Positions 1,675 to 60,790 of a stretch of 64,000 bases of DNA are shown here, piece after piece. The DNA comes from Boothiomyces macroporosus. Lineage: Eukaryota; Chytridiomycota; Chytridiomycetes; Rhizophydiales; Terramycetaceae. The notes beneath the pieces are model-generated. The model was not told the DNA's origin, did not search any database, and saw only the letters and a list, made by a program, of their open reading frames with translations. Position numbers and translations under genes: made by a program. The DNA lies in assembly GCA_027604185.1 (NCBI GenBank), contig JADGKB010000022.1:1-64000 (forward strand). The letters run 5' to 3'. Position 1 is the first letter of the stretch. Each line of letters starts with the position of its first letter.

Positions 1675-3800
1675 ATGGACAAATTTGTAATCCGAACAAA
1701 AAAACAATTAGGTGAGGACCAACTAACCAGATATCAATGAAGCACTGAAAAAGTTTCAAATACAGTCATTTAGAAACAACCAAAAGGAAATTATCGAATC
1801 GATACTACAAGGAAATGATACACTGGTCTTAATGCAAACGGGAGGAGGAAAGAGTTTAACCTACCAATTGCCAGCAATCATTTCCAATGGTGTAACCTTA
1901 GTAGTATCTCCACTACTAGCCTTGATTCAGAACCAAGTGGATGGATTGCTGAAGCTGAAAATTAATGCTGCGACTTTAAATTCAAGTATTACTCAAAAGC
2001 AAAAGAACCTGGTACTATCCGTTTGATTTAGATTGTCAATGATCTACAGTCCAAGACCCCAGAGATCAAGTTGCTGTATGTTACCCCTGAATTATTGGCA
2101 ACAGATAATTTCCGACAGATTGTAGACAAGATGCACAAGAACAACGTATATTCCAGATTAGTGGTAGATGAAGCTCATTGTATCTCGGAATGGGGTCATG
2201 ATTTTAGGGATGACTATCGTAAACTAAGCTACTGGAAAAGAACCTATCCAAATATACCTGTAGTCGCTCTAACAGCAACGGCGACTGTTACGTAATTCTA
2301 TTTTAATGCAGTGTTCAAAAAGATATCGTGAAACAGCTTGGATTGACAAACTACAAGATTTTTGTTTCTTCTTTCAATAGACCAAACCTTCACTATGAAG
2401 TTAGGTTTAAACCTCTAGATACAAATGACCCTACTGAAGATGTATTAAAGTTCTTGGGCAATATTTACGCAAAAAGGAAAAGTAGAATTGCGACCCAAGC
2501 TACTAATGAAAGAGCAGAGGGTGTTTGTGGGATCATGTAACTCTAATTAACAATAGTTATTGTGCAACCAGAGCACAGTGTGAAGAAGTCGCGCAAACGC
2601 TTAGAAATAACCAAGTCAGAGCTAGATGCTACCACTCTGGATTATCTCATAAAGACAGGAAAGCTATCTTGGAAGCATGGACAGGAACAGATGGAACGTC
2701 GGTAGCCAATGAAAACAACACTGGAAAACCTCAAAAAACTGATATAATAGACATTGTGGTTGCTACAATCTCGTTCGGAATGGGTATTGACAAGAAATCA
2801 GTTAGATTCATTATTCATTGGGATGTACCGAAATCGTTTGAAGGATATTACCAGGAATCTGGAAGAGCAGGAAGAGATGGATTATTATCGAGATGCATTC
2901 TGTACTACTCTGTGCAGGACAGAGATAGAGCTTTGTTTTTGATTGCACAAAATCAGGAAAATCCAAACAATTCTCAATCTTTGGAAAGCTTCAAACAAGT
3001 AATCCTGTCGTAATCTAGTTGATCAAATATTGTGAAAACTATAAAAAATGCCGCCACTTATTTATAGTCGATTATTTTACAAAACAAAAGAATGAAATGA
3101 CTGATGAAATGTGTCCAAAAAAGAACTGCGATATTTGCAAGAATCCAGACAAGGTCAAGAACGCTGCCTCGGAATATTTGTTGAAATCTAGCAATTACAA
3201 AAGCTGTAGTGAGAGCACAGAAGCGATCTCCTTACTTGGAGGGAATTATACGGCGAGCGATGGTCCAAAGAGAATGATAGACGGTAGTTTGGCTAGTTTT
3301 ACTCCATTCAAGCGTACATATGATGAGTATTCGTCCGTTTCAGAGTATCCAGGATTCCAACGAGCAAAAGATTTATATCGAAGCTCCTCTGACTTTGGAG
3401 GTTTTAAAACAGCAAAAGAAATTCATCAAGATTCTAATCCGCTATTTGGTAAAAGGTCGAAAGAAAGCAGTGAGGATGAATCCGTCTCAAAATACCCCCT
3501 CCTGCACTATGACAGACACATTAAAGGTAGTACCCGTGAAAAAAGAGATAAATCAATTTTCAAATTGATTAAAGTATTGACTGAAAAGTATGAATCACTA
3601 GATCTTGAGTATCTACTTTTTAACATAGATCTATTCAGCAATTGGCAATCCAGCTCGAAGGAAAGGTGTTTATTGCTAGTAAACTGTTTGTAATTTACCA
3701 AAACAGTCTCGTAGCGGTTTTGAAGGAACTGAAGGGTTTGAAACCACCATCTACCGAGCTGAATACTGCAATTGAACAATTTCTATCAAATAAAATGTGA
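1675..3800 (+). CDS. RecQ family DNA helicase, RecQ5-like
   Basis: Seven exons give 669 aa after removing introns of 19, 20, 20, 20, 20 and 17 nt (the last at 3690-3706). The ATP-dependent 3'-5' helicase core is complete: Walker [13 protein letters not shown], the DEAH box in [16 protein letters not shown], motif III ALTATAT, and motif [14 protein letters not shown]. The order [28 protein letters not shown] and a following C..CRH...YF...C..CDIC zinc-binding segment resembles RecQ5-type proteins more than BLM/Sgs1. No HRDC domain is visible. The zinc segment is followed by a Ser-rich, poorly conserved tail. RecQ helicases unwind recombination and replication intermediates in the nucleus. The RecQ5 assignment is by motif memory; membership in RecQ is certain. 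Confidence 0.9.
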
Positions 3801-4222
3801 TATATCCCAATGCTGCATTGTTCATTGGAATTATTGTGTACACAAGGATGGGGTAGAGCCCCAATAATATCTGGCTCTTAACTCTGCGCGCCACCAATAT
3901 TCAAAAGCACTTGGGAAATAGAATACCAACGTATCAGAACGATTCCACACTACTTGCTTTCCTGTATGCAATATTACGCAAAATACTTAAATAGAACTTG
4001 CTAAAGGTTGCAGATTAGTTGAATTGCAAATCTCATTGAGTGAGCCCAATGACAACACTTTGACAAATGCAACAAAAAACACAAAGAAACGTTCTATACG
4101 CCAGAGAAGAACCACTTGCTCACCAAAACAATTCAGAAGCCACTGATGAGAAGTATTCGTGATATTTCATTTAGTTTTTATTTTTTCTTGAACCTAAACA
4201 TTTCAATTTGAAACGTTGGCAA
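3801..4222. other. Intergenic region
   Basis: No coding or RNA feature recognised. It lies between the RecQ stop and the next gene on the same strand, so it must hold the RecQ 3' end and the promoter of the seven-helix gene that follows. Confidence 0.4.
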
Positions 4223-5407
4223 ATGCCTGAGCCTGCCCCTCTGGGTATATTAGAAACAAGCGAGTTTTTCATCCAAAACATGGAATTTTCACTGCTACAA
4301 ATATTCGTAATAACGATAAGCTTATTAGGATTCTATGGCGGAATATATATCCTCTTCTTCTGCAACATGCCCAACAATCAATTCACATATTTGATTAAAG
4401 TTATTGCTGTGTCGGATGTGCTTTCAGCATTTGCAGCACTGGTTGATGTGCTGTTCCACTTGTGCGATATGGATAACAAATATGTATACGGAGTTACTAG
4501 AGCAGTTTACACACTTAGTACAAACATGTTTCTAGTGCTAGCCAGCGCATTGGCTATTACAGCATTGTATATAGTTCGTTATGGCGGGTCTATCCATAAC
4601 GTTCCTTGGATCTTGTTCTCGTTGCTGTCGATATCTCTCTCCCTACCGCAAATGCTATTTGCATATTTCAAGAATGGCAAAGGCACAAAGGTGATCAATA
4701 TCATGGACCTTACTTTGGATATTGTTCTATTTCTAGTGACAATGTTTTGTTATCTAGCCACATATCACCAACTTAGAATGTCAAAAGAGGCTAGAAGACT
4801 GCGTTTATCCAAGAATACATTTTACAAACAAGAAACTACGCTACATGCTGGTAGTAACGCTATGATGAAATTCAGCATCACGTTTACTATGGTTAATCTA
4901 TTTATTTTCATCCCTACAATAGTCTTGAATATGCTGCTGGTCCTGCATCAAACCAAAGTACTGAAAGGGAAATATGGCTACTTTAACTTTTTCGGTCCTG
5001 TCGGAGTGTATCAAACATTCTTTTCTATAAAGGGTGTATTGCATGCCATTGGTATTTACTATGGGTTCAACAACAAAAAGATTTTGAAATCCCCAGAAAA
5101 GAAAATCGCTAAAGAGAAACCACTACCAAAGAAAGATGATCTTTATATCTCCATGCCAATACCCCTCAAGACTAAAGAGGTTGATGCTCCAAAGATTGAA
5201 GCTCTGCCAGGTAGTTTCACTGGAGCACTCTCTCCTATTTGGGATACGTCAAAGGCTTCTGGAAAGCTAGACAAAGACCTTCAACTGTCCAAGAAATTCC
5301 TTTCAATGACAACTTCAGCTAGCACTATTCGTGTTGAAGAAAAGTCAAAACCACTCATGTTAGATTCCCCAACTGTATCAAAGTTTCCAGACTTTAGTAA
5401 TATGTAA
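4223..5407 (+). CDS. Seven-transmembrane receptor-like protein
   Basis: Intronless, 394 aa from the first ATG. About seven hydrophobic segments occupy residues ~15-295, with a short first loop containing NMPNNQF. A ~100-residue cytoplasmic-type tail rich in Lys, Ser and Pro follows. The layout and the loop motif recall G-protein-coupled receptors of the cAMP/Git3-like kind seen in fungi and amoebae, but I cannot place it in a family. The gene at 9070-10024 has the same arrangement (LPNNPF in the equivalent loop) and is probably a distant paralog. AATAAA overlaps the stop codon. Confidence 0.7.
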   Translation: MPEPAPLGILETSEFFIQNMEFSLLQIFVITISLLGFYGGIYILFFCNMPNNQFTYLIKVIAVSDVLSAFAALVDVLFHLCDMDNKYVYGVTRAVYTLSTNMFLVLASALAITALYIVRYGGSIHNVPWILFSLLSISLSLPQMLFAYFKNGKGTKVINIMDLTLDIVLFLVTMFCYLATYHQLRMSKEARRLRLSKNTFYKQETTLHAGSNAMMKFSITFTMVNLFIFIPTIVLNMLLVLHQTKVLKGKYGYFNFFGPVGVYQTFFSIKGVLHAIGIYYGFNNKKILKSPEKKIAKEKPLPKKDDLYISMPIPLKTKEVDAPKIEALPGSFTGALSPIWDTSKASGKLDKDLQLSKKFLSMTTSASTIRVEEKSKPLMLDSPTVSKFPDFSNM

Positions 5408-5429
5408 ATAAAGAATTTATTCTATCTAT

Positions 5430-6346
5430 CTATTCCTTTAGTATAACCAACTGTGGTTTCTTTGGAGCGTTGAATGAGCCAAAATCTGAAGGAGAACTGA
5501 CCGACACTACTTTGCTGCTGCTTATCCCAGAGCTTACCTTTACGCCATTAAAAGAGTTAAAATCGCTAGGGGAGCCAACAGACATGAATTTTGAATTTGC
5601 AGAGCTTCCAGTTTTCAGCTTTGCCCCATAAACGATACTAAGGAAGATCAATGGCGGGAGAATAATCATTTCGATAGGAATCAAGACGCCTGTCCAGACT
5701 GGCCCAAATGTATTGAGAGTGTATGGGATATACGTAGCTGTTCTAACTACACAAAGCAGTACTCCAAACATGGACGAAGTTAGTTTCAGCGATTCCAGTT
5801 TTTGGGTAGTTTCGCTGAAATGTGATTGCCTAATCGAAATAACCATCAAATAAACAAAGTAGATACCCACTATCCCAACGAAAAGGGTATTCATTGCTGA
5901 TTTTACGATTCTTGCTGTGCTTGGGAGAGACAGCAAACATATCCCTGCATCACTGTACTTTGTAGAATAGAGAATGATGCTGACAACCCTAGGAATTATA
6001 TCCAGGCCCCAGTAAAGGAACTGCCAGACAGCTTTCTTCCATACTTTCTGCTCCAATTTGTAAACTCTAATAAGAAATATCCAGTCTACCAATGCTTCAG
6101 CAATGTTGAACGAAATGCCCTACAATCAAAAACAGTTACTTGAGAGTACCACAGGGCACATTCAGTAACAGGCGCCATGTTGATTGCTAGTGTAATTGTA
6201 GTGTTAATTATCAGCAGTATTCCAAATACGCATTGAAAAATTGCTATTTCAGAGCGCTTGCTGAATCCATAGTATATCAACAGCACCAGTCCGTTTATTA
6301 TCGCTACAGCGAATTCTGCTATGACAGCGATATACGTTGGTGTCAT
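5430..6346 (-). CDS. Seven-transmembrane protein, tandem paralog A
   Basis: Two exons, 298 aa, split by a 20-nt intron at 6120-6139 (GTAACT...TTGTAG on the coding strand) after the WYSQ residues. Seven hydrophobic helices are visible. Shared family motifs are DWIFLIRVYKLEQ, GLD..PR.VSI, TATYIPY.LNT and VYGAKLK. The tail is Ser-rich with two SPSDF repeats. The next two genes, B and D, are close paralogs in the same orientation. A receptor role is plausible from topology, but no ligand or known family is recognised. Confidence 0.75.
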
Positions 6347-6578
6347 TTTGGAAAAAATTATTTGCGGTGTAACTTCAAGTCCACAACACCAAAAAATGTT
6401 TGGTTAAAAACCGTTGGCGGAAACTAAGTTGAGCTCATATTCAGTAATCTGGAATTCTCTTCTTCTCATTAATCCCAGGTTTATGGAAATGCTCATTTTT
6501 CTCCTTGTTGTCTGTCCAAAAACGGAAAGAGCCGCAAAAGCGGTTCAAAATTACAAAAATGGAAAGTTTCATTTAAGT

Positions 6579-7396
6579 CTATATTATTGAGAGGCCATGC
6601 TTCTTGTAACCAGTGGAACTGGTTGTGAACGAATTGATATTTGAAATTAATCCGCTACCCGTTTTAATTTTCGCACCGAAAACGATACTCAAAAATAAAA
6701 TCGGGGGCAACAAAGTCATTTCAATTGGAATTAGCACACCAGTCCATACTGGTCCAAAAGTGTTGAGAATATATGGGATATAAGTTGCCGTTCGGATAAT
6801 GCAGAGTAAGATACCAAACATGGCTGAAGTTAGCGTAAGTGATTCTAGCTTTTGTCTAGTGTCATTCGAAGCAGAAAATCTGATACTGCTTATCATGATC
6901 CAGACAAAGTAAAACCCAACAATCGCAACAAATGTCGTATTCATGACAGACTTTGCAATTCTAGCTGTACTTGGGAGCGATAACAGACACAATCCCAAAC
7001 GGGAGATGGCCGTATTGTACATAACTATAGACACTGCTCGAGGCACAACATCTAGACCCCAGAACAGCACTTGCCAAATAATCTTTTTCCACAGCTTTTG
7101 TTCCAGCTTGTACACTCTAATCAAAAATATCCAGTCGATAATCGCTTCCGCCGCATTGAAGCTAATTCCCTAGTGTCAAGATAAATTACTTGTAAATACC
7201 ACAAGTAGCACTGGGTAACAGGTTGAAGGTTGATTACCAATGTAACGCAAGTGTTAATTATCAAAAATATCCCAAAAATGCATTGAAAAGTAGCAATTTC
7301 TGAACGAGGATTGAATCTGTAATAAAGCAACAATGCCAAGCCGTTCAACATTGCCATTGCAAATTCAGCTACCACAGCAACAAAGGTAGGAGTCAT
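6579..7396 (-). CDS. Seven-transmembrane protein, tandem paralog B
   Basis: Two exons, 265 aa. It closely resembles paralog A in all seven helices and carries a 20-nt intron at the same protein position (7170-7189), with different intron sequence. The tail after GAKIKTG is short and ends KKHGLSII, like the end of paralog D. It presumably arose by local duplication with A and D. Function is unknown. Confidence 0.75.
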
Positions 7397-7422
7397 TGTC
7401 TGCGCTTGAATATCTTGGAAAT

Positions 7423-7500
7423 TTATAACCAGTGGTCATGCTTGATATCAGAGGCCCCAATTGGCCGTTTATGGACCTTCATTTGTGCGCCATAAACAAC
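7423..7500 (-). pseudogene. Possible 3' remnant of another seven-helix paralog
   Basis: Read on the minus strand, this stretch encodes VVYGAQMKVHKRP and ends near KHDHWL before a stop. It resembles the SIVYGAKLKT segment and KKHGLSII ends of the neighbouring paralogs. It is preceded by a splice-acceptor-like pyrimidine-rich TAG but no in-frame upstream helices follow the family pattern. It may be a decayed fourth copy or an unused terminal exon. The match is short. Confidence 0.35.
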
Positions 7501-7717
7501 CTACAGTGCCAGAAACTGAAATGATAAAAAAGAAGCAACTACTAATAAAAATGTGAAAAGTACAAATCCAAGTGTAGTTTTCAAAAACATCAAACTTAAA
7601 GTCGCAGTCTTGTCGACGTGATTTATACGGCCTATATTGGGAAAAATGTTTTGAACACAAATTCTTGGTCTCAACCACAGTTCAATTTGGGAAAAAGAAA
7701 TATATTTCTGAGAGCGT

Positions 7718-8524
7718 TTAGATGATGGATAATGATTTTTGCTGTCCGATCGAGGAGGCAGTTTTTTCCTTTGAGATTTTTGAGGAGACAAAGTTGGTCA
7801 ACGTGTGCTTCTTTGTTTTCAGCTTTGCTCCATAAACAATTGAGCAAAACAGGAGCGGTGGAAGGATTGTCATTTCCAACGGAATCAAAATACCAGTGAT
7901 GGTTGGCCAAGTATTGAGAATGTAGGGAATGTAAGTAACAGTGCGCACAATGCAAAGGGCTACTCCAAACATGGTTGACGTCAAAGTAAGCGATTCTAAT
8001 TTTTCACTTGTATCTTGGAAATTCGACTGTCGGATGCTTTCAATCATCATGAAGATAAAGTATATTCCCACTATTCCAACAAAAGCAGTGTTCATTGCTG
8101 ATTTAATAATTCTGGCGTTTTGAGGCAGATACAATGCGCATAAATCATTAACAGTTGAAGTGCTGTACATTAAAATGGAAACTATTCTAGGGATAACGTC
8201 CAAGCCCCAATAAAGTGCCATCCACGAGTATTTCTTCCATGAGGTTTGCTCTAGCTTGTATACTCTAATCAAAAATATCCAGTCAATCACTGCTTCAGCC
8301 AAATTAAATGAAATTCCTTGAAGGTACCATTCCCCACACCAAGTGACTGGATTAGTATTAATATATAGCGTAATTGAAGTATTAACCAAAAGCAGTACAC
8401 CAAATAATATTTGATATTTTTGTATTTCGTTGGTTGATTTTAGCCCATAGTGGTACAAGAGGACCAAACCATTCAAGATGGAAACTGCAAATTCCGTGCA
8501 CACAGCAACGAATGTCAAAGTCAT
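7718..8524 (-). CDS. Seven-transmembrane protein, intronless tandem paralog D
   Basis: Single exon of 268 aa. It has the same seven-helix architecture and motifs as paralogs A and B (DWIFLIRVYKLEQ, GLDVIPRIVSI, TVTYIPYILNT, VYGAKLKT). At the point where A and B are interrupted by a 20-nt intron (WYLQ followed by GISFN) this copy reads straight through. The ATG was chosen because MTLTFVAV aligns with the MTPTF/YVAV starts of A and B. Role unknown; a receptor-like function is inferred from topology only. Confidence 0.75.
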   Translation of the reverse strand: MTLTFVAVCTEFAVSILNGLVLLYHYGLKSTNEIQKYQILFGVLLLVNTSITLYINTNPVTWCGEWYLQGISFNLAEAVIDWIFLIRVYKLEQTSWKKYSWMALYWGLDVIPRIVSILMYSTSTVNDLCALYLPQNARIIKSAMNTAFVGIVGIYFIFMMIESIRQSNFQDTSEKLESLTLTSTMFGVALCIVRTVTYIPYILNTWPTITGILIPLEMTILPPLLFCSIVYGAKLKTKKHTLTNFVSSKISKEKTASSIGQQKSLSII

Positions 8525-9069
8525 TAGCAAGCGGAAATTTTTTGGGGTTTTAAGTTGAAGGAGGCTTCTTGGTTCCGGATTGGGTTGCTCAACTGGGCTG
8601 TTTTATTTTAGGAGCGCCTCAAACAACGTTGTAGCTGGACAAAAGCGAACGGTAATTTGAATACAATGTCATTATTACCAAACAATGTGATTCTAAACCG
8701 TTTTTGAAAATCTCCAAAGGCAGTTTTACACTCGACAGCTGCACGCTTGACAGTTCCACATAGGTGGCGGATCCTCCAACTGATGAAAGTCCATGCGCTA
8801 TTCGAATAATGATTAAAGGATTAGTGATGCAAAGAGAATGAAAAAGCAACAATGAGCCAGCACAGAGTAATCTACCGAATGTCTTCTGCGATATCCACCA
8901 ACTCCCCCAATTTCCAAAATCCGGAATGTTATCACACTACCCATAGAACAGTGGATCCAAGCACTCTCATATTCAAATACAAACCATTAGTGTTGGTTGT
9001 TGTAATCTTTTTTTATTCTTGAGACCTGAAACTAAGAGCCCATCAACCGCACAGATTTCTTTCACCAAA
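8525..9069. other. Intergenic region between divergent membrane-protein genes
   Basis: No supported gene. A 77-codon open frame on the minus strand lacks conserved features. The stretch should contain two divergent promoters. Confidence 0.4.
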
Positions 9070-10024
9070 ATGACCACAAGCACAGGATACCTTATATTCA
9101 ACGGATTTGTTATATTTGGAGGAATCATAGGGACTTTGGGAGCTATTTCACTATTGAATTTCAAATTACCCAACAATCCTTTTAGTTCTTTGATCTGGTT
9201 TCTCGGAATTACGGATTTACTATGTTCAGTTCCATCGATAATGCTCTCAATTACCTTTCTCATCAACAATTCAGTGGGAACGATGCTGTGGATAAAGTTT
9301 TACAAGGTGTTTGCAATCTTTCACTTGAATTTGTTTGCGTATTTGGGAGTCAGTATTGCATTTTATACCTATTACATTGTCAGACTAGGCGGCAGCTTCA
9401 AGTCTATCAAATGGAAAACTGTCAGTTTCTTGTGCGTCTGTCCTGGTAAGTAATGGAAATCTGCGTATTGAATTGCAATACAATTTATATTTCAGATTAA
9501 CATTAGGCATCCTTATTATAACCGGTGGTGCTATTCAGACCCAAAAATATGGTGAAGACTATGCCAGACAGACGCTAATGCCGGTCGTTTATTCTGAACT
9601 GATGTTTGTCTTTTTACTGACATTGACATTTTGCTATTTAACCCTTGCCCAACTCTCACACCTGCCCAAAAAGAAATCCCAGGCAGAGCACCTGATGTTT
9701 AAATTCATTACGTTCTTTATGGTTGTACATGTGATTCTATGGGTGCCAGTATTCGTGTTTTTATTATTATTTATGATGCAGGCCGTCCATGGCAAGACTC
9801 TAATATTTGACCAACTGCCGCACAATGTTCAAGTGAGCCAGGTGCTGTTCCAAGTAGTCATGATTACCAAGGGGTTCTTTCATGCTCTGGTAGTGCGCTA
9901 TGGTCTGTCGTTCAAAGAAGAGAAAAAAGTTGTCTTGAAAGTCCGCAGAAAGTTGAGCGCAGTCTCGCTACCCGAAATGGCGCTTGTTGTAGATAAACCC
10001 AAGCGCCTATCAAATATATTCTAA
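9070..10024 (+). CDS. Seven-transmembrane receptor-like protein
   Basis: Two exons, 302 aa. Seven hydrophobic helices are visible, with LPNNPF in the first loop and YYIVRLGGS after helix 3, matching YIVRYGGS in the gene at 4223-5407, so the two are probably paralogs. The intron at 9450-9495 is 46 nt, more than twice the usual size in this window. The frame is kept with a donor at GTAATG (reading ...CPGK then LTLGILIITGG). The tail is short and Lys-rich. A GPCR-like role is likely, but family and ligand are unknown. Confidence 0.7.
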
Positions 10025-10068: not shown

Positions 10069-12256
10069 ATGAACACATTCAAAATTCTCATATCGACAGA
10101 CAATCACATTGGTTACATGGAGCAAGACCCAATTCGATGTAACGATTCATTCCAGACATTCGAAGAGATTTTGAAATTAGCAGTAGCTCATAAAGTAGAT
10201 TTTATCCTGCTGGGAGGAGACTTGTTTCATGAAAACAAACCCTCCCGCAAATCACTGTTCAATTGCATGACTCTAATCAGGCAGTACTGTTTCGGCGATG
10301 GTGAGTGCCATGTTGAATTCCTGTCTGATCAATCAGTTAACTTCTCCAATCGGTAGTCTAATTCTCAACTAGATTTGGAACTGTAAATTACCAAGACCCT
10401 AATTACAATGTAAAAATACCCATATTTTCAATACATGGAAATCATGATGATCCTTCTGGCGATGGAAATTTATGTGCACTGGATTTGCTATCTGTTTCTG
10501 GATTAATCAATTATTTTGGAAAACAAACTCAAGTTGATGATATTGAAATTAATCCTTTGCTCATGAGAAAAGGCGATAGCAGGTTAGCGATATATGGATT
10601 AGGAAATATTAGAGACGAACGATTGCATCGTACTTTTGAAAAACAAAAAGTGAAAATGCTGCGACCTGTTGAAGATACTGATGACTGGTTTAATTTATTT
10701 GTAATCCACCAAAATAGGTTTGTTTTTTGTAATTCAGAATCGCCCACTCACAGAAAAACTATATTCCTGATAGATTCTTGGATTCCTTCTTGAACCTATG
10801 TCTCTGGGGACACGAGGTACTTTAAAATTAAGTGCAGCATGAATGCCTGATAGAACCGCAAGAATCAGTAAACAATTTCTTTATTACACAACCAGGTAAC
10901 AGCATTCTTATGCAAGGTTCTTCAATAGCGACATCTTTATCTGAAGGTGAATCTGCTCAAAAGCATATTGGAATATTGAAAATCACTGGGCAGGAATTCC
11001 AACTTGAAAAAATCAAACTTAAAACTGTCAGACCATTTGTGATGGACAATGTCGAGTTATCAAAAGTCGATGGATTGGACCCTGGAGATAAAGACAGTGT
11101 TGCATTGTTTCTTCGCAGAAAAGTAAGCAAGATGATTATAAAAGCAAAACAGCAATGGCTCGAATTAAACTCTGACAAACAAGAGTCAGATTTCCCAAAG
11201 CCCTTAATTAGATTAAGGGTGGAGTATAGCGAAGGGTTCACAACTTTCAATCCTCAGAGGTTTGGTCAAAATTTTGTGGAAACTGTTGCAAACCCAAAAG
11301 ACATTTTGCAATTTTATCGTAAAAAGGCTCCAAGAGGTAAAATGGGTTTGATGTCTAGCTAAAAAAGTTGCTGCCAACCCTCAGGATATACTGGATATTG
11401 AATCGTTCTTGCCTGAAAATATTGAAGAAACTGTTGTAGAGGACTTTATTGCGGATTACTTGAATGCACATAAGCTGGAAATAATACCTGAAAATGAATT
11501 TACAGATGTAATCGAAGATTTTATCCAAAAACAAGATAAAGAAGTAATCTCAACCTTTATTGATGATACAATTGCGAAAACTAGGGAAATGATCGAGTTG
11601 AATGGAGAACTTGAAATACCAAGACTGAAAAGAATAATCCATAATATTAAAGAGCAGCGCAAAGAAGAATATTCCAAGCAAGTAGGGAAAAAGAATCGCA
11701 CAGTCTCCATCAAAACCCCATTAACCATGAACCTGCCACAAAATAAATGGAAGACGGCGAAAAATGTAATGCCAGTCTAATTCAGGAACAAGACGATTTT
11801 GAAGATGAAGAATATGTGTATGTTAATGAAGATGAGAAAAAGAAACAAGTTAAAAAAGCAGCACCTGTGAAAGCAAGACCAAAGAGTACCAGAGGAAAGA
11901 AGACGCGCGATTCAGACGAAGACGTCGATATGTCTGAAGAAAATGAAGAGGTTGCACCTAAAAAAAGAAAAACCATGGAAGTGAATAGCCAAACTAGAAA
12001 GAGGGCTCGAAAGGCTCCAGTAGAAGAAATCGAACCTGCTGTGCCAGAGAAACCTATCCAGCGTTCAAAATCAAAAAGATTGATTGTTGAAGAAGACGAA
12101 GAGATGAAACCTATTCTCGAACCTAAAGTTGAACCTGAAGTTGAGCCGCCTAAAAGAAAAGGTAGATTGCTACCTACTAGCTTTTCTGCATCTGGCACAA
12201 AGAAAAAGAAGGCTGTTAGACAATCTACTTTAAATTTTACTCCATCGCAGAGGTAA
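10069..12256 (+). CDS. MRE11: Double-strand-break repair nuclease MRE11
   Basis: Seven exons, 687 aa, with introns of 20, 20, 21, 21, 22 and 20 nt. The N-terminal phosphoesterase motifs are all present: [42 protein letters not shown], and WGHEHECLIEP. The Mre11 DNA-binding/capping domain follows, then an acidic-basic tail with [21 protein letters not shown] low-complexity sequence typical of eukaryotic Mre11. As the Mn-dependent nuclease of the MRN/MRX complex it processes DNA ends in the nucleus. Splicing across 10353-10372 and the intron inside the IHQNR region restores family motifs. AATAAA overlaps the stop. Size is normal for the family. Confidence 0.95.
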
Positions 12257-48547: not shown

Positions 48548-49398
48548 ATGGCAAAATTCAATCTTGCAAATGCAAGACAAGTGCTTGCTCACTACAGAGA
48601 TGAGACCCTTCCGGAATTCCCTGAAAAGCTTACGCAAACATACGACCCAGTCCTAGTCAAAGAGTTGGGAACGACAATCATCAATCAATATCAAGGCTCA
48701 ATCTCCAAACTGGAATATTTCGCAATATACGAACAGACTTTAATCTCTCATATAGACACAGGTAATTGAAACTAAAAAAGGCGATAACGAAAAAGCGCAA
48801 GAATTATTAGATTTCCTAATTTCCAAATTCCCACCTGAATACTCTAGAGTGAAAAAGTTGCGAGGGCATTTATACGAAGCGCAAGGTTCTTGTAATTAAC
48901 CTAGGTAGATTCCAGGAAGCTATAAGGCTTTACGATGAATGTCTAGAACAAAACCAAACGAATATGCCAATCCACAAGAGGAAAATAATGGCTTATGTTT
49001 CAATGGGAGATACTCAGAAAGCAATCGAGTTGCTAGTGTCTTATCTGGATACATTTATGCAGGATACTGAAGCGTGGGTGACACTTGGAAATTTATATCT
49101 GCAAACAAACGCATTTCAACAAGCACTGTTTTGCTACGAAGAATTGGTGCTTTTAAGACCAGCTGCTCATCTGTACCTCTTGAAGGTAGCTGATTTGTAC
49201 TGTGCAGTTGGTAAACATGAAATTGGTAAAAAATATTATTTGGGTGTTGTTCAATCATTGGCAGACTGTTTGCACGGATGGTATGGGGTATATTATTGCT
49301 GCAAGAATTTGAAACAAGACGGAGATTTGTTTGATTTGGCGAAATCCAGGATTTTGGAATTGGCTAAAGGGCCAACAATTCAAAAAGTATACAAATAA
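48548..49398 (+). CDS. EMC2: ER membrane protein complex subunit 2
   Basis: Three exons, 270 aa, with two 19-nt introns. TPR helices read GRFQEAIRLYDECLEQN, HKRKIMAYVSMGDTQKAIE, DTEAWVTLGNLYLQ and ALFCYEELVLLRPAAHLYL, the diagnostic EMC2 order. EMC2 is the soluble cytosolic scaffold of the EMC insertase, which places tail-anchored and multipass proteins into the ER membrane. Size agrees with family members (~290). Confidence 0.9.
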
Positions 49399-50844: not shown

Positions 50845-50861
50845 GAATTGAAAAACCTGAA

Positions 50862-51875
50862 CTAGAAAAAATCATTGTTATTAGGTCTGTTTGTTACAAA
50901 GTCAAAGACGACAAGGGACAGCATCAAAGCCACGAGAAACCAGAATGCGGGAAGAATCCAGTTTGGTAATGGGAATATATCCGAGTACGTGTGTAATCCC
51001 AGATACACGGAAATAAACCCTAATGGCCCAAGACAATTTCCAATCCATTTATGTGCAATCTCCCATATACTGGTTTGGAAACGGTAATGGTTCAAATTAG
51101 TGTGAACCACATTTCCCAACACTATTTCCACAATCATTCCAAACACCACCACCAACCCTAATTTGCCATGCGTGCTTCCAATTGAATCTTGATTCCAGTC
51201 TTGAGAATATAGAATCATTAAAACGAATGCTGCAATGGTTCCAACCCCAGTAAGTATTGCCATACAAAAAAGATGGATAATATACCATGTGTGTCCCAGG
51301 ATAGATCGTACTTTTTTGGTTATGAATATACCAACGAATGGGGATATAATCCAAGCTATAAACATCAAAACGCCATGCGCACCAACAATCTTTTGGTACG
51401 CTGTTGGTGTAGTTTTAATAATGGGATTATCACTGCCAACATCAAATTTGAATGAGCCGCTTGCATCATGAACTGGCAGAATTGCTGATTTTGGATCATC
51501 AATGTTTCCAGAGGGCGGAGTATTTGAAGCTGCATAAATGAATGGGCTGTTTGGTAGAACATCACTTTGGGTGCAGAATGAAAAGGACTGCTCGACCCAA
51601 TTGGGTGTAGAGCACATCAAGTCTACACTGTATTGATCTTGGAAGGCTTGTAATTTTGGTGTTGTATGATTTGCTCCCAAGTACCGGTTAATACTGAAAT
51701 CACCAGTAGAATTCAACCACCCAATATACATATTTGAATCCGCCATTTGAGATCCAATACCAATCGCGTTCCAGCCAGTGAAGCTGCTCTGGATTGTGAA
51801 GCAGTTGGAGTTCACATTATTAAAGAAAATACAGAAACTGTTTGTAATCACACACATTCTCGCATTCGCAACCAT
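50862..51875 (-). CDS. DOMON-cytochrome b561 protein, without clear signal peptide
   Basis: Single exon, 337 aa. The DOMON domain (CFTIQSSFTGWNAIGIGS) has candidate heme ligands Met in GSQMADSNMYIGW and His in LPVHDASGSF. The b561 domain has five or six helices with HGVLMFIAW, GHTWYIIHLF, STHGKLGL and AHKWIGN providing four His for two hemes. Such proteins move electrons across the membrane to extracellular ferric or copper acceptors. Its paralogs at 61-64 kb start with an obvious signal peptide; this one starts MVANARMCVITNS, so it has lost the signal or an upstream exon was missed. Confidence 0.85.
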   Translation of the reverse strand: MVANARMCVITNSFCIFFNNVNSNCFTIQSSFTGWNAIGIGSQMADSNMYIGWLNSTGDFSINRYLGANHTTPKLQAFQDQYSVDLMCSTPNWVEQSFSFCTQSDVLPNSPFIYAASNTPPSGNIDDPKSAILPVHDASGSFKFDVGSDNPIIKTTPTAYQKIVGAHGVLMFIAWIISPFVGIFITKKVRSILGHTWYIIHLFCMAILTGVGTIAAFVLMILYSQDWNQDSIGSTHGKLGLVVVFGMIVEIVLGNVVHTNLNHYRFQTSIWEIAHKWIGNCLGPLGFISVYLGLHTYSDIFPLPNWILPAFWFLVALMLSLVVFDFVTNRPNNNDFF

Positions 51876-52270: not shown

Positions 52271-53409
52271 TTATTCAACACCGTTCTTCTCTGGCGCAGG
52301 CTCTGGCACTGGTGCCTTATCTCCAATATTAACCTTCTTCATTCCGGAAGAAAGAGCAGCAACATGCCTAATTGCATTAACAAACTTGATGGCATCCATA
52401 CCAACCTACTATTATCTACAGTTACCTTGAGCTTCTGTCGGGCATTAAAGTGCTTCACAAGGTTATCACCAACCTTTGATATCAAATTCTTCTTTTCAGC
52501 GGATTCAGTCTTTAACCATTGATGTTCTTGGGCTTGTGCGCAGGTCATACGCTTGGCAGAATCTACTTGAATAAGCTGGCAAATGAAATCCTTGCCAATA
52601 TCCGAAACTTCATCCCAGTCTGGTGAGAAAACTAGTTTAAACGAGAATTACAGGCAAATTTACCGCGAAGGGTCAGTTCCATCATCACTGCTTCATCTTT
52701 ATCCCAGAATGGAGGATAGCCGCTCAAGAGAATGTATGTAATTACCCCAATACTCCACAGATCAACTGGCTTTCCATAAGACTCACCACGCAGAATTTCT
52801 GGTGCGCAGTATGTCAGTGTGCCACAACTAGTTTTAAGCATACTGTCATTAGTAACAATTGTAGATAAACCAAAATCTGCTAATTTGACTTCGGCATCAT
52901 CTGCTTTTGACGCCATCAATAGATTTTCTGGTTTCAAATCCTAATTTAAAAATAATTACTCTATGAACAATCCCGGCATTGTGAAGATACTGAACAGCGT
53001 CTATGATCCCTTTTACGATTTTCTTTGCATCGTCTTCTCCATAGTAACCCAAATTCACGATACGATCAAACAATTCTCCGCCATCAACACTGCTATAAAC
53101 AATAAATTACTATTCCATCTGCATGTAGATCTTGTCTCTAGTTTCAAAGCATTCATATAAGCGAATAATATTGTGATGCTTTATCCGCTTCAAAATGGTA
53201 ATCTCTTTGATGATTTGTTCTTCCATCCCTTTTGACTTTGATTTCTCAATGACTTTCATTGCGTATTTCTTTCCAGTCGCATTTTCGGTTACCAATGTGA
53301 CAGTAGCAAAAGTCCCACTTGATTAGTGTTCGGTACCTTCCTAATTTCTCTCCAAACGTGAAAACTAGGTTAATTATCAATTACAATCATGCAAATTTGG
53401 TTTTCCCAT
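52271..53409 (-). CDS. Ca2+/calmodulin-dependent protein kinase, CaMK1-like
   Basis: Seven exons, 340 aa, with introns of 20, 19, 18, 19, 20 and 20 nt. The kinase core is complete after splicing: the GSGTFATV loop, [36 protein letters not shown] (with a Thr suited to activation by an upstream kinase) and [20 protein letters not shown]. The C-terminal [19 protein letters not shown] region has the basic-hydrophobic pattern of a CaM-binding/autoinhibitory segment. Short, single-domain CaMKs of this size occur throughout fungi. One intron is only 18 nt. Confidence 0.9.
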
Positions 53410-53631: not shown

Positions 53632-55290
53632 TTAGCTAGCATATATCTCTTCAACATTTTGCTCATATACTTTGGTTGCTGGTGAGACTTCTTGGACACT
53701 AGCTGGTCTACTAGTTTCGCGTATATTTTCAACTACGCTACGTGGTTCGATTTTACTAACTTTGGGCTGCACACTATAGGTTTCTTTCTTTTCGGATTTA
53801 AAAGCCTGGTCAAACTTTTGATTCAATTCATTCAATCGATCTTCATTTAATGTCAAACGATTCTATTTCAGAAATATTTACCTCCAAGATACTCATTGTT
53901 TGAGTCAAAATGTCCATTTGTCTGCTTATATGCGACAATGCAGAAGCAACTTGATCTGGAATGGTTTGCACTTGCAGAGGAGACTTTGCATAAAGTTTTG
54001 GTTCAAGCGCTGTTCTGGTCTCTTTTGGATCTTCTTTTACAGTGTCTGGTGTTGGAGCTGCATCCATGTAACCCTGATTTAATTTATATTTACCACATCG
54101 GAAATAATTGGAGCTCCTAACTGGATTGGTTCTTGATCAACAAACACCCGCTGTGGAGATACTGGGGATTTTGTACGAACAGTTTCGTGCGTTGGGCTGC
54201 TATTCTTGACGGGCTTGAATACTTCTTGATCAGAAACATGGATTCGATCAATTTGATCGAAATTACTCTTCCAGACCATAACCTGAGAGTCACTTCCACC
54301 AGTAGCAAAGAAATCACTTTGGGGTGAAAACACTGCAGCTGTAGTAGGACCATTTTTATGCCCATGAAGTGTATAGAATAAATGCCCTTCTTTTACATCC
54401 CAGACCTTGACAACTCCATCCATACCAGTACTAATTAGCCATTCACCATTGTCACCGCCAAAGCAAACACTATTAACCCCGCCAACATTAATTGAATTAT
54501 CCAACGAAGCAGCATTACTACCGTGAGCATCTCCATAGTGCTGAATAAGCTTGTGAGTCCTAGTATCGAATAATTTAATAGATCTATCCATTGATCCTGT
54601 AGCCACTATCGTACCAGAAGGATGGAAGGCAACACTAGTCACAACACTATATTAACGCAACATTACCCAGTATGGTCCCAATAAGTTTTGATACAGCTCT
54701 TTGAATTCAAATCCCACAGTTTGATGGTTTTATCATCGGATCCAGACAGCACGATTCGATTATCTGGAGAAAACTTTGCGCTTCTAACCCAGTTCAAGTG
54801 TCCAGTCAGAGAATATTGGAATTTCGTTCTGTGGGTTGACCATAGCTTTAGTGTCTTGTCATCCGAACAAGTCAAAAGCTGTTCCGAATCGCTCGAAAAT
54901 TGAACATTTCTGACTGTAGATGTATGCGCCTTAAATACGACAACGTCTCCTTTTCTACCATCAATAAAACTTACACGTTTGGCGTCCAAAGGCGAACTGT
55001 GCAATCCCTGGATGACGAAGCAAGAACTTTTCCCGTATTTGCAAAGTCTAAGCCTGTTACAGGCCCCTAATTTAAAGCAAATTACTTTGTGTCCTACAAA
55101 GCGGAAGGCACGCAGTTGCGGTTTAAAATTCCAAATCATTACTGAATTATCTAGCGACGAGGAAGCGAGCTGAGACATGGAAGGCTTGAAACATAGTCCT
55201 GTGATGACATCCTTATGCCCGCGAAACGAGCGCTCCAGTGTTGGATCTTGAGAGCGCAGATAAGCCTGTTGTTTAAACACTTTTTACCAT
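53632..55290 (-). CDS. POC1: Centriolar WD40 protein POC1
   Basis: Seven exons, 512 aa, with introns of 22, 19, 20, 20, 20 and 19 nt. Seven WD repeats begin QDPTLERSFRGHKDVIT and include VFKAHTSTVRNVQF, LTGHLNWVRSAKFSPD and YTLHGHKNGP, ending GGSDSQVMVWKSNFD. A C-terminal coiled coil LSHISRQMDILTQTMSILE continues as NRLTLNEDRLNEL, the conserved POC1 tail. POC1 stabilises centriole/basal-body triplets. The coding frame requires an intron (55266-55287) straight after the ATG, so the first coding exon is just the start codon. The divergent F-box/ankyrin gene starts 24 bp away. Confidence 0.92.
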
Positions 55291-55314
55291 CTCGAAAAAA
55301 ATAGAAAATCTCGA

Positions 55315-56348: not shown

Positions 56349-56447
56349 ACCAGTTTTCGCATTTGTAAGGGGCTTTCCAGGGTTCTGAACAGAGATAGAA
56401 AGCAAGGAAAATGAGAGAATTAAAAGAAATTTGGATAAAAGGTTCAT
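56349..56447 (-). CDS. Possible first exon of a small secreted protein
   Basis: Encodes MNLLSKFLLILSFSLLSISV, a textbook signal peptide, then QNPGKPLTNAKTGERI before a stop or donor site. A plausible donor at the GGTGAAC near the end would join Cys-containing sequence further down the minus strand, but the model is incomplete. Confidence 0.3.
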
Positions 56448-56790: not shown

Positions 56791-56798
56791 TATAAATA
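56791..56798 (+). promoter_or_regulatory. TATA box of the lone b561 gene
   Basis: TATAAATA begins 38 nt before the ATG at 56829. Confidence 0.5.
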
Positions 56799-56828
56799 AG
56801 TAAAGCTTTTTCATATTTTGTAACTCAA

Positions 56829-57447
56829 ATGTCTAATACTTCCATCATTAACTCGACTGATGACCAATACGAAGCTGTTGTTACTACACACGGTTTGTTG
56901 ATGTACATTGCGTGGTAAGAATCAAACTGATTATAGGTGTGTATCTCCATTCATTGGGATCTACTCTGCAAGATACTTGAAAGATAAATGGGGCCACAAC
57001 TGGTATAGAGCACACGCAGCTGTTATGGGTGTACTGACTGGTGTATTAACTCTTGCTGGGTTTATATTGATTGTGCTATATTTCCCTCCCCCTCATTTCC
57101 CTGATGACACTCTCCTGCACTCTGCACACACTAGAATCGGTCTTTCCCTTGTAATCTTGATGGTTTTACAAATCATCTTGGGCTTCTTTAGCAATTTCAA
57201 GTTTGACACAGATCGTACTTCAGTACCGTTGTGGGATAAATTGCACTGGTGGCTAGGAAGAGGAGTGTTTCTTTTAGGTGTTGTTAATGTATATCTCGGA
57301 ATTGAATTCTACGAAGAAGATTATGATTCTATACCTTTAATGTGGTTTATGTACTGGTCTGCGCTCGTTATCGGTGTTGGTGCTCTCATCTATGGGGAAG
57401 CTACCAACGGAAAAGTCACGCACGGCAAGGTTGATCCTGCCAAGTAA
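56829..57447 (+). CDS. Cytochrome b561 domain protein lacking DOMON
   Basis: Two exons, 198 aa, with a 22-nt intron at 56915-56936. The protein is the b561 half alone: TTHGLLMYIAW, GHNWYRAHAAVMG, HSAHTRIGLSL and LHWWLGRGVFLLG carry the heme histidines, ending in a short Lys/Gly tail. It is closest in motif to the DOMON-b561 paralogs at 61-64 kb (SPFIGIYSARYLKD), so it probably derives from one by loss of the DOMON part. The short N-terminus has no signal peptide. Expected role: transmembrane electron carrier. Confidence 0.85.
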
Positions 57448-57610
57448 GATAGAATAAAGAATCGAAAGAATTTTCTTATGCTAGAAATCATGAAGTAGTC
57501 CACTTCAATCAGCTCCGTGCTTTGGCATAGAGAATGTTCTCGTGTCCTTGTAAATATTACTTTTTTCATTGTCAGAAAAAAGTCAGTTTTGTGACTCTCC
57601 TAATCTTGCA

Positions 57611-60600
57611 ATGCTGAAAGAATTATTTTTGACGCTTCTGATAGTTCCGCTGACCTTGGTATTGACCTATATATACTTGCGGAAGCGAAATTTGGGAGAA
57701 TTAAACGAAATCACTACAGCATCAGTTGCATACGATCACGAAGCGTTTGGCCACATTCTTAATTGGGACCAGCATTGCTTTTACCTACGTGGGAAACCGC
57801 TCTGGGTCATATCAGGAGAATTTCATTATTGGAGATTGCCAGACAAAAATCGATGGAGAACCATTTTATTGCAGTACAAAACAGCAGGATTGAATTGTAT
57901 TCGAGTTTATTTCCATTGGGGATTCCATTCTCCAGGTAATCGCAACCTTACTGTTAGCTGAAGGGGTTTATATTTTCGAAGATGATCGCGATGTAGAGTA
58001 TCTTTTTCAACTGTGTGAAGAGTTGGAATTGTTTGTGCTCTGTGCACCTGGCCCTTACATTTGTGCAGAAACTCAAGGAGGAGGTATTTCATGTGTAATC
58101 CCAGGTCATCCTTCATGGCTAATTGCGAAAAGACACATCAGAATTCGGCACTCGTTGATTTCGTTTTTCAGATTGTTTGACCAAGAGTACTCTAATTATT
58201 GCCAAGAATGGTTCCGCAATATCTTGCCAATCATCCAAAGACATCAAGTCACTACCAAGCCAAGAGGGTGTGTTCTGGCTGTGCAAATTGAAAATGAGAC
58301 CTTTGAGCTGATTTTCGGGTTGATTCCATTGGGATTATCGGACGATATGCGAGTACTGGCAAAGTGCGCTAGGGATTTAGGTATCACTGTGCCTTTGTTC
58401 ACAAATGATGCGTGGGAAGCCGGGTCGTTTATAGCATATCCTGAAGGGAAAAAGATATTTGGAAAGGATCATTTTGGTATTGATCTCGTAACAAGTTGCT
58501 AACGCTAGTACGGATTTGACAAGTACAGTATTTTCGCACCAGTTTCATCTCCTAAAGCAGCTCTGTTGGGAATCCCACCAGAAAAATCAATCTGGGAAGA
58601 ATGGGATATAAAAGAATTCAAGGCATCTTTGGATACCATTGAACAAACAGTTCGCGGATATGGCGGCGGTGCTGCACAATCACCTTTGCTTATTCCAGAA
58701 TTGCAGGGAGGGTGGTTTAATCACCATACAGTGAAAAGCGGCTATGATACTACTTACAACTACTATGGTAAAAAATACACCAGATTGATTCTTGACACTG
58801 TTCTTTCCCAAGGTGTTACCGCATTTAATCTTTACATGTTTTACGGAGGAACCAATTGGGGAACCGTAGGTGATCCTGATGTTTATACGTCATATGACTA
58901 CTCTGCATGTATACGTGAATACGGCTTGTACTGTTCCAAAGGTTATCATTCTTGACTGTAGGTCGACATGTCAGACTTGTAATTTCGTTTGTGCGTTCGT
59001 TCGCGGCCGAATTCTCACGAACCGAATGCCAAGACATTACCATCCGGGCTCCATTCACAATTACTTCTTCAGTTGATGACTATATTGCCAAACAGAGAAG
59101 AACAATTGGACTGCTCAAGATTTACTTTATATTCTTTAGGAATCTAAATCTCAAAAAGCCAACTGCATCTACCATTACTGTACATAGAAACAATCGTGAG
59201 CCACTGCAACTCAAATCGAAATTACCTTTCAAACAGTCATTCATTGGTATTGCTGATTATAAAACCAAGAGTGGCTTGCATCTGATCTTGGCTACCATTC
59301 CAATATACACTCGTATTTTCACCAAAACTGACCAGGAAATCTGGATTGTGCAATGCGATGATGAAATCAATGGCCAACTGGCCTTCTACGGTAAAGTGGA
59401 ATGCACTGGAAATATTGAACCTATAACTTTAGTAGAAGGTGACGCTACCATTATATCATTGAAAAAGTCCAGCGGAAGCTGTAAAGTTACAGATGGCAAA
59501 GGAGGATCTTTAGTTATTGTTGCTCTTACTGGATACAATCTTGAAACACTTTATCCAGTATTCACTGAGCCTTATTGGGGAACATTTGACACTACTGTTG
59601 CCGCTGTATTCTGGGGCTGCCATCAGTTTGAATTCATTATAAAAGACAGAATTTTGGAGGTGGATGCGTTTGAAAATGACAAGTCTGTATACGGGATTTC
59701 TGGAATTGATGAATTCAAAAACTTTTCTCCGACTGACAAATTTGGAACAGAATATGTCGTAGAGCATAAATTGAATGAAATCAAAGCGGAGGATATTGAA
59801 CTTGCACACCATTTACCAGTACTGGAATTCACCAGAAGTCGCACACTGGATTTCAACAAAGTTCCTTGGCAAAAATTAGAATTGGCAAAAGGGAAAACTT
59901 ATCCGGTGAAGAATGCTATCGATTTCTGCTTCACTAGTGGTCATGTTCTTTACAAACTAGAGTTCAATTTGACTTCAGTTCCTGCAGCACCGTTAACTTT
60001 TGATATCAATATGCGCCATCAATGCGCATTGTATATCAACAATAAATCATTTGGTGGACATCTGACATACTCTCTCAGTTTATTCCGACCAGGTGGAAAA
60101 AGTGGTCCAGATTTTGGAAGATTGTATGGGTGGGAATCCTATGACTTGCATCCTGCAGATTTAGTACGAGGCAAAAATGAAATTATCTGTATTGTTGAGT
60201 CTTTGGGGATGGGAAGGCAACCTGGCCCTTCCAACGACATTAGAACTCCAAGAGGAATTATCGATGCCAAAATCAAAGGTATAAAGGACATAAAATGGTA
60301 TATTTCTGGCGTTGATGTAAGAAAAACAAAGAATCCATTCAATATGTCTGGCATTCCGCTCGACAATCAACCTGATTGGGTTGATCTAGAAAAACCTTTG
60401 AAAAATATCTTGCCAAGTAATATTCTTGTTCCTACTTGGTTCGATGGGAAATTCACGGTTTCCACAAAGAAGGATCTCATTGCGCCGTTGCGTTTAATAG
60501 TTCGGGGTACCAATATGGCATATATTTTTATCAATGGAATCTTCATTGCCAGATATTATGGATCCATTGGACCACAGAATAGCTTCTATATCCCATGTGA

Positions 60601-60790
60601 CATGTACAACGAAACAAATATCATTAGAGTCATGACATATTCTACAGAGCATCAGCATCAGAGTGGAAACTTGGAGCTGTCCTTTAATCTTTGGAAAATT
60701 GAAGATCAAGACAATGCAGTAACTAGTGGAAATCTAAACGAAACTGGAAGGACTTTTATTTTGTATTCCCAAACTCTAAAAGTTCAATAA
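57611..60790 (+). CDS. Glycoside hydrolase family 35 beta-galactosidase, membrane-anchored
   Basis: Five exons, 1031 aa, with introns of 22, 21, 21 and 20 nt. A short cytoplasmic start and one helix (LFLTLLIVPLTLVLTYIYL) suggest a type II membrane anchor. The TIM-barrel has ISGEFHYWRLP, GLNCIRVYFHWGFHSP, CAPGPYICAETQGGG, the acid/base Glu in VQIENET and the nucleophile Glu in IPELQGGW, then YMFYGGTNWG and TSYDYSA. C-terminal beta-sandwich domains follow. It would release terminal beta-galactose from polysaccharides or glycans at the cell surface. AATAAA overlaps the stop codon. Confidence 0.92.

Follow-up and report, generated by a model that had tools for sequence, protein, structure and literature searches.

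How small can a spliceosomal intron become in a fungus? The question is raised by a 64-kb window (positions 1 to 64,000 of contig JADGKB010000022.1) from the chytrid Boothiomyces macroporosus, in which gene after gene is interrupted by introns of about 20 nucleotides (nt). We conclude that these are very probably U2-type spliceosomal introns that have shrunk to a near-minimal module of 19–23 nt and are excised by an otherwise ordinary major spliceosome. The conclusion builds on the demonstrated anatomy of the introns, on lengths that homology supports, and on the presence of the named parts of the splicing machinery.

Intron lengths in the window and the genome sample

Introns were placed with a gene finder supplied only with codon statistics and GT..AG borders, under a flat prior that made all intron lengths from 10 to 200 nt equiprobable. 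The splice-site matrix was trained on these data while lengths were kept flat, and a second run used the learned lengths, a prior that favours 19–23 nt by construction. Besides the window, the sample took in 20 stretches of 10 kb each from elsewhere in the genome, which brought it to 264 kb of the 15.2 Mb (contigs C1, C2, C10, C22, C58, C100, C150 and C200); every genome-wide statement below refers to this sample. With the flat prior, 202 of 260 introns were 19–23 nt in length (48, 91, 45, 13 and 5 introns of 19, 20, 21, 22 and 23 nt, respectively), and none was 18 nt. With the learned prior, 277 of 288 introns fell in the same range (69, 129, 54, 21 and 4). The preliminary description of the window had called the introns genome-wide, and their occurrence beyond the window is borne out by the 20 further stretches, which gave 156/190 (flat) and 201/210 (learned) introns at 19–23 nt; the weakest stretch, L019, gave 2/4 with the flat prior. 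By proportion from 288 introns per 264 kb, the whole genome would hold about 16,600, an extrapolation. Among complete gene models scoring at least 30, 59 of 87 contain introns.

Within the window, 46 of 70 introns were 19–23 nt with the flat prior, a count that was the same when the matrix was trained solely outside the window, and 76 of 78 were 19–23 nt with the learned prior (44 of 20 nt, 15 of 19 nt). These counts agree with the earlier tally of 90 of 92 introns at 17–23 nt, with about 50 of 20 nt and about 18 of 19 nt. The introns first reported in RecQ (2012-2031, 2292-2311 and 2537-2556), in MRE11 (10353-10372), in the SNAP gene (three) and in the WD40-repeat gene (14) are all present, while the ABC transporter gene carries 12 introns in the rebuilt model, not 11 (Table 1). 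When GTA..TAAY..AG strings were counted on the two strands of the window and set against an order-3 Markov expectation, the largest excess fell at 20 nt (41 versus 10.8 expected), with 17 versus 8.7 expected at 19 nt. Independent gene finding, string counts and the homology described below thus confirm that nearly all introns of the window are about 20 nt long.

The peak depends on GT-AG borders. A GT-AG run without the matrix placed 53 introns of 19–21 nt among 129, whereas nine decoy border pairs placed 0–5 such introns among 94–112; because the decoy borders fail to produce a peak, the peak at 19–21 nt is above chance. Retention would disrupt the reading frame or introduce a stop for 275 of the 277 introns of 19–23 nt, which is no independent evidence because the gene finder favours such cases.

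Homology yields the same lengths without splice rules. All segments of 0–60 nt near a site were cut out, with shifts of up to 12 nt and no border rule, and the cut giving the best local protein likeness was chosen; the flanking frames were taken from our own gene models. The sites were four introns of Lys2, five of RecQ and six of GatB. For Lys2, the comparison set was 37 of the 120 matches listed, drawn from P0005-P0045 with P0031, P0039, P0040 and P0041 left out as partial or unnamed; P0001 and P0003 were excluded on account of broken models at the sites tested, and P0002 and P0004 for no particular reason. The sets for RecQ and GatB were 15 and 23 of the 120 matches listed, and at most two more were dropped per junction where anchors were unaligned. 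The best length equals the predicted length at 14 of 15 introns, covering 19, 20, 21, 22 and 23 nt. Specifically, homology alone returns 20, 20, 21 and 21 nt for Lys2, exactly 20 nt for the RecQ introns at 2012, 2292, 2537 and 2999, and all six GatB lengths. The optimum for intron 2537-2556 is unique and coincides with its GT..AG borders. Furthermore, a start at 1675 together with removal of intron 1712-1730 restores the N-terminus of RecQ.

Intron anatomy, splicing machinery and alternative explanations

Statistics of intron anatomy were compiled from the 277 introns of 19–23 nt. At the donor, position +3 is A in 89%, +4 is A in 58%, and +5 is T in 46%; intron position −3 is T in 71%, and the exon ends in A at −2 (58%) and G at −1 (53%). 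Intron interiors are 76% A+T and are T-rich (43–52%) at +5 to +9. The branch motif is YTAAY, with the branch A 13–14 nt after G1 in 233 introns, 5–6 nt before the last G in 242, and at both spacings in 220. The two spacings are statistically independent (p = 0.32), with 62 introns of the combination (13,5), 49 of (13,6), 69 of (14,5) and 40 of (14,6). The lengths 19, 20 and 21 nt arise because two nearly two-valued spacings add: (13 or 14) + (5 or 6) + 1. A match to T[AG]A[CT] with its A at offset 13–15 and 5–6 nt from the end occurs in 198 introns; when the interiors were shuffled 200 times, the mean was 15.3 and the largest count 24. The analysis of joint spacings, shuffles and look-alikes left aside models scoring below 30 (102 kept). 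The donor and the last ten bases carry about 13.3 bits of information, a figure that rises by a few bits with the narrow length (a spread of 1.84 bits versus 7.58 bits for flat lengths of 10–200 nt). That the introns work almost without spacer, as the preliminary description put it, is what the two spacings indicate.

On the minus strand of L019 (G000:C100:10001-20000), at 1637-1676 in reverse-complement coordinates, a 40-nt candidate consists of GTACTGTTTACTAATATAG followed by GTAGCATTAATCTAATTGTAG, 19 + 21 nt with no exon between. The pair could be spliced in two steps or removed as one.

Small nuclear RNAs (snRNAs) U1, U2, U5 and U6 were sought with Rfam. Two copies of U2 (142 and 135 bits) and one match to U6 (62 bits) lie above the Rfam cut-offs. 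The pairing elements are unaltered: the 5′ end of U1 is AUACUUACCUG, the branch element of U2 is GUGUAGUAUC, and U6 has ACAGAGA. One conceivable further contact is between GTAAT and the AUUAC that precedes ACAGAGA in this U6. The YTAAY motif is complementary to the GUAGUA element of U2, and the canonical U1 end faces a 5′ splice site in which A predominates at +3, yet G is found at +5 in just 14% of introns. The string ATTAAAATGAAA, a candidate snRNA 3′-end box, lies downstream of both U2 genes and the U1 gene (L022, L023, L042), and TATAAATA, a candidate TATA element, lies upstream of all three.

The protein factors sought were Prp8, SF1, U2AF65, U2AF35, Slu7, Prp18 and Cwc25, and eight fetched splicing loci, some overlapping, were modelled. 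Prp8 was found. The SF1 model encodes a helix-hairpin, a KH domain and two zinc knuckles, the U2AF65 model encodes three RRM-type stretches, and U2AF35 appears as four adjacent pieces. Two partial matches to Slu7 (154.6 and 94.7 bits) become, after splicing, a single full match (1-253/253, 294 bits). Gene models were also obtained for Prp18 and Cwc25; the latter encodes MGGGDLNLKKSW with the conserved MGGGDLN, its start being set at MGGG by conservation, 43 residues downstream of the start chosen by the gene finder. Except for Prp18, the modelled splicing-factor genes carry tiny introns of their own (19–24 nt). Loss of splicing factors, for which a survey of U2, U2AF, SF1 and Prp8 had been suggested, was not seen among the seven proteins sought, all of which are present; U1, U2 and U6 RNAs were found.

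We propose that each intron would act as a cassette consisting of GTA(A), a T-rich interior, a YTAAY branch site with its A 13–14 nt after G1, 3–4 further nt, and AG. The contact of U1/U6 at the 5′ end and that of U2/SF1 at the branch site would jointly cover most of the intron. The 3′ splice site would be the first AG past the branch point, 5–6 nt on, chosen by proximity and read by U2AF35, which would then be a neighbour of the SF1 bound to the branch site. Because only 3–4 nt separate the branch A from AG and leave no space for a 3′ pyrimidine tract, U2AF65 could not occupy its usual place; it would be held via protein contacts or be bound to the T-rich segment that precedes the branch site. 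The resulting lariats would have rings of 14–15 nt.

A broader claim seems to us evenly poised between right and wrong: that the whole coding-intron population of a fungus that bears no sign of parasitic reduction consists of this two-spacing cassette (13/14 + 5/6 nt), each recognised as one unit by a full spliceosome with U2AF working without a 3′ pyrimidine tract, and that this state predates the genus, being common to Terramyces at least and perhaps to Globomyces.

Several points weigh against the reading of these segments as ordinary, if shrunken, U2-type introns. Splicing itself, the order of its events and the role of U2AF are what we infer from DNA alone. The match to U1 is marginally under the Rfam cut-off (68.8 versus 69.5), the Rfam search for U5, in which no positive control gave a signal, found no match, and the exon-wise match to U2AF65 (230.7 bits) is under the curated cut-off of 310.3. 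Homology left RecQ intron 3609-3628, where conservation is poor, unconfirmed, the sole failure of the 15, and it did not confirm the exact length of RecQ intron 1712-1730, for which 3 of 10 homologs were usable and the best length was 13 nt, with 19 nt third and all of the same frame class. Border placement is softer than length: the predicted GT..AG pair is among the equal-best in 6 of 14 cases and 1–4 nt off the optimum in 8. Reversed sequence, under the same model, gave four introns, 0/4 at 19–23 nt, a weak control because only 14 genes were called. Coding sequence gave no clear depletion of chance look-alikes (12 observed versus 17.3 expected at 19–22 nt; 140 versus 171 at 25–69 nt), a result that we do not count as support. 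None of the best 120 Lys2 or RecQ matches listed names a Boothiomyces protein, leaving GatB as the sole tie to a deposited record; our guess is that the similar-length filter of the search would skip fragmentary deposited models. Finally, the gene finder is blind to stop-free introns whose length is a multiple of three, to introns in untranslated regions (UTRs) and to introns above 200 nt, it overlooks some introns (for example RecQ 1712-1730), and 58 of the 260 introns placed with the flat prior are scattered outside 19–23 nt.

The last of these points would be expected if the tiny introns were real but only one class, with many ordinary introns of 40–200 nt, coding or UTR, hidden by the gene finder. 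We consider this unlikely. The 61-nt candidate at 9446-9506 with its strong GTAAGT donor speaks for it, as does the confinement of the survey to coding parts and to lengths of at most 200 nt. The length-aware model, however, leaves 11 of 288 introns outside 19–23 nt, and by eye some start or finish in an apparent tiny intron; moreover, the three conserved genes need no longer intron at the sites tested by homology.

Removal without the spliceosome, whether by DNA elimination as for the internal eliminated sequences of ciliates, by an endonuclease as for the HAC1/XBP1 introns, or by ribosome bypass, is very improbable. It would account for a size far under that of the introns in a survey of 644 fungal genomes, whose intron passages term a Cryptococcus mean of 63 nt relatively short and leave 20-nt introns unmentioned (PMC8476143), but not for the GT..AG borders, the U2-complementary YTAAY at fixed spacing, the AG-like exon ends, and the retention of snRNAs and splicing proteins.

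Deposited proteins and genes of the window

Over 81% of its length, the GatB model is 100% identical to HK103_003095 from Boothiomyces macroporosus (Terramycetaceae, Rhizophydiales, Chytridiomycota). Among the named matches listed, spliced Lys2 has 91% identity to that of Terramyces sp. JEL0728, 67% to that of Globomyces sp. JEL0801 and 64% to that of Gorgonomyces. GatB thus carries the assignment to species, and Lys2 adds to that to family. HK103_003095 joins exactly across GatB introns 1–4 (20, 22, 20 and 20 nt), then runs into the 23-nt fifth intron, 41363-41385, and terminates there, an end that is an error of the public annotation. Annotation software had thus already removed four such introns, which is apparently an independent sign that they are introns.

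Related chytrids show comparable scars. At the very site of the 20-nt intron 15485-15504, the deposited Lys2 of Terramyces has an insert of seven residues; as far as the protein allows it to be read back, the insert would suit a retained intron of 21 nt with GTAAY at its start, ATAG at its end and a branch motif at the usual spacing. An 11-residue conserved block after intron 13293-13313 is absent from the Lys2 of Terramyces and Globomyces JEL0801 and present in Gorgonomyces and Batrachochytrium; its absence looks like the wrong placing of a splice site in an intron that is shared, a hint that tiny introns may extend to Globomyces. The GatB of Globomyces pollinis-pini (487 residues) seems complete, so not every model is broken. 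Since all three deposited proteins compared at these sites (Boothiomyces GatB, Terramyces JEL0728 Lys2 and Globomyces JEL0801 Lys2) are flawed there by read-through, by an insert or by the lack of a block, the genes of such chytrids may have to be annotated anew.

It is hardly conceivable that the introns are an artefact in which assembly errors or pseudogenes break frames and the gene finder patches them with GT-AG gaps: placement by the gene finder does occur at frame breaks, but decoy borders yield no peak, homology alone returns the predicted lengths in conserved genes, and the seven-residue insert of Terramyces is what a retained 21-nt intron would give.

Separately, 3,111 bp are identical between L043 (G000:C49) and L044 (G000:C100), and the assembly thus carries duplicate or haplotype copies there.

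Table 1. Genes and candidate introns of the window (intron lengths in nt in brackets)
Feature	Position	Strand	Introns	Remarks
RecQ helicase	1675-3800	+	1712-1730 (19), 2012-2031 (20), 2292-2311 (20), 2537-2556 (20), 2999-3018 (20), 3609-3628 (20)	
RecQ extra intron GTGAGGACCAACTAACCAG	1712-1730	+	(19)	overlooked by gene finder, whose model starts at 1832
Type example intron GTAACTCTAATTAACAATAG	2537-2556	+		RecQ gene
Candidate intron GTAATATGTAAATAAAG	5397-5413	+	(17)	probably model error at gene end
Candidate intron, GTAAGT donor	9446-9506	+	(61)	one of two window outliers; real longer intron or model error
MRE11 model	10069-12256	+	10353-10372 (20), 10718-10737 (20), 10817-10837 (21), 11346-11367 (22), 11766-11785 (20)	spliced protein, first 512 residues: Pfam Metallophos 1-191/191, Mre11_DNA_bind 1-178/178
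Lys2 (alpha-aminoadipate reductase)	12387-16575	-	16187-16206 (20), 15485-15504 (20), 13293-13313 (21), 12757-12777 (21)	
SNAP gene	19581-20531	+	19691-19710 (20), 19810-19829 (20), 19986-20005 (20)	gamma-SNAP in the preliminary description; after splicing Pfam SNAP 86 bits, 2-257/282
Short gene model	20653-20858	+	20768-20787 (20)	low score
Bifunctional lysine-ketoglutarate reductase/saccharopine dehydrogenase-like	21559-24289	+	21748-21770 (23), 22021-22039 (19), 23030-23049 (20), 23538-23557 (20)	
ABC transporter	25161-29823	+	25523-25541, 25798-25817, 26446-26465, 26752-26774, 27042-27061, 27319-27338, 27849-27868, 28036-28055, 28327-28346, 28751-28771, 28959-28978, 29555-29575 (all 19–23)	Pfam ABC_membrane and ABC_tran (first 683 residues)
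Ubiquitin-conjugating-enzyme-like	29854-30277	-	30127-30145 (19)	named by eye
SPX/VTC4-like	31457-33581	-	33502-33522 (21), 33380-33398 (19), 33156-33175 (20), 31558-31579 (22)	named by eye
WD40-repeat gene	34289-39844	-	38595-38614, 38452-38470, 38270-38288, 38124-38143, 37922-37941, 37615-37634, 37525-37544, 37077-37095, 36562-36581, 36084-36103, 35977-35996, 35650-35671, 35316-35335, 35117-35136 (all 19–22)	Pfam WD40 (first 878 residues)
GatB-type gene	40086-41691	+	40263-40282 (20), 40520-40541 (22), 40725-40744 (20), 40857-40876 (20), 41363-41385 (23), 41535-41553 (19)	
Ciliary microtubule inner protein 2-like	41842-42748	-	42079-42097 (19)	Pfam match from earlier model 41726-42748
Gene model	45946-46468	+	45949-45967 (19)	
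TPR/EMC2-like	48548-49398	+	48762-48780 (19), 48886-48904 (19)	named by eye
Protein kinase	52271-53259	-	53090-53110 (21), 52941-52959 (19), 52632-52651 (20), 52406-52425 (20)	named by eye
POC1-like WD40	53632-55178	-	55067-55085 (19), 54955-54974 (20), 54647-54666 (20), 54074-54093 (20), 53863-53881 (19)	named by eye
Gene model	56829-57447	+	56915-56936 (22)	
Beta-galactosidase-like	57611-60790	+	57936-57957 (22), 58488-58508 (21), 58942-58961 (20)	named by eye

In most fungi, lysine-ketoglutarate reductase and saccharopine dehydrogenase are two separate enzymes. The gene at 21559-24289, about 5 kb from Lys2, fuses domains of the two types (Pfam AlaDh_PNT_N, Sacchrp_dh_NADP and Sacchrp_dh_C). 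DOMON/cytochrome b561 genes form a cluster at 50862-51875 (-), 61096-62250 (+) and 62270-63469 (+), all by Pfam, and by eye the gene at 56829-57447 (+) probably belongs to it. Several adjacent genes on both strands of 4223-9990 resemble seven-pass membrane proteins by eye; two were tested and had no Pfam match. The gene for a ciliary inner-microtubule protein fits a zoosporic fungus.

Comparison with other ultra-short introns

Boothiomyces is a free-living saprotroph. The bulk of its introns lies, under either prior, in a range of a few nt below 30 nt, as in Stentor, the nucleomorph and the mikrocytids. By protein identity the genome is that of a chytrid, in line with the fungal type first assigned to it, and Boothiomyces, although it appears to work like the ultra-short-intron genomes, belongs to a separate lineage with no common descent with them. 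The comparison with Stentor and nucleomorphs drawn in the preliminary description is apt, to judge from the intron passages of two papers (PMC9505925, PMC10245619).

Stentor coeruleus has introns of 15–16 nt, and the likeness, as described in passages of PMC9505925, extends to uniform GT-AG introns starting with GUA, about 76% A+T, a fixed branch A, a 5-nt tail, and conserved pairing elements of U1, U2 and U6. In Stentor, however, the branch A is at nucleotide 10–11 in a weak motif, whereas in Boothiomyces it is mostly at nucleotide 14–15 in a clear YTAAY, and 18% of Stentor genes have introns, a share far from that of our complete models (PMC9505925). Cwc25 of Stentor is without the glycine plug, a loss proposed there to help prevent a 10-nt loop from clashing (PMC9505925); in Boothiomyces, unlike Stentor, a predicted loop of 14–15 nt coexists with the plug, encoded in MGGGDLN.

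Chlorarachniophyte nucleomorph introns (18–21 nt) have nearly the same size range, but belong to an endosymbiont's relic nucleus, whose genome is extremely reduced (PMC10245619), whereas Boothiomyces has a fungal genome of 15.2 Mb. Introns of Mikrocytos mackini (16–17 nt) are likewise very narrow in size and conserved in sequence, in a parasite with 224 introns and a reduced spliceosome (17–19 proteins; U2, U4 and U6), according to the same passages (PMC10245619). Paramecium introns of about 25 nt are likewise genome-wide, short and of a single size, in another supergroup (PMC5014332). Boothiomyces differs from the mikrocytids in having 288 introns in 264 kb and seven of seven protein factors. 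Microsporidian introns are few per genome, start from about 23 nt and have the branch point near the 3′ site. They are called few and relatively short in a passage of PMC10245619. Microsporidia, which are relatives of Fungi or lie inside that kingdom, thus resemble Boothiomyces in their short introns and short branch-to-3′ distance, but they have few introns and a reduced spliceosome, in contrast to the abundant introns of Boothiomyces.

In yeast, Slu7 and Prp18 are dispensable when the branch point and AG are close; Boothiomyces has kept both despite its spacing of 5–6 nt. U2AF-dependent splicing in humans wants at least 8 pyrimidines, and SPF45 can serve instead for short introns whose tract is truncated, as stated in passages of PMC8363638; the tract of these SPF45-dependent introns is likewise too short for U2AF, although the model intron there is 56 nt (PMC8363638). 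Among the papers listed in searches of an open-access library, we found no report of introns of about 20 nt in a fungus, the intron passages of chytrid papers give no lengths save a mapping limit, and we found no remark in print on the tiny introns of Boothiomyces, though a deposited gene model removes four.

Ultra-short introns, reported in the passages cited above from ciliates, a nucleomorph and mikrocytid parasites, are thus found here in a fungus, a member of the kingdom that supplies the best-studied yeast models of splicing. They bear on the need of U2AF for a pyrimidine tract, on the need for Slu7 and Prp18 at a spacing of 5–6 nt, and on the proposal, in the part of PMC9505925 that concerns Cwc25, that the altered tip of the Stentor protein makes room for a small loop. 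Introns of 19 nt (13 + 5 + 1) are abundant, and none of 18 nt was seen in 264 kb. Because the branch point of this fungus is clear and its U1, U2 and U6 elements are canonical, the lower limit of intron size is directly testable in it, and Boothiomyces is a test case for minimal intron size.

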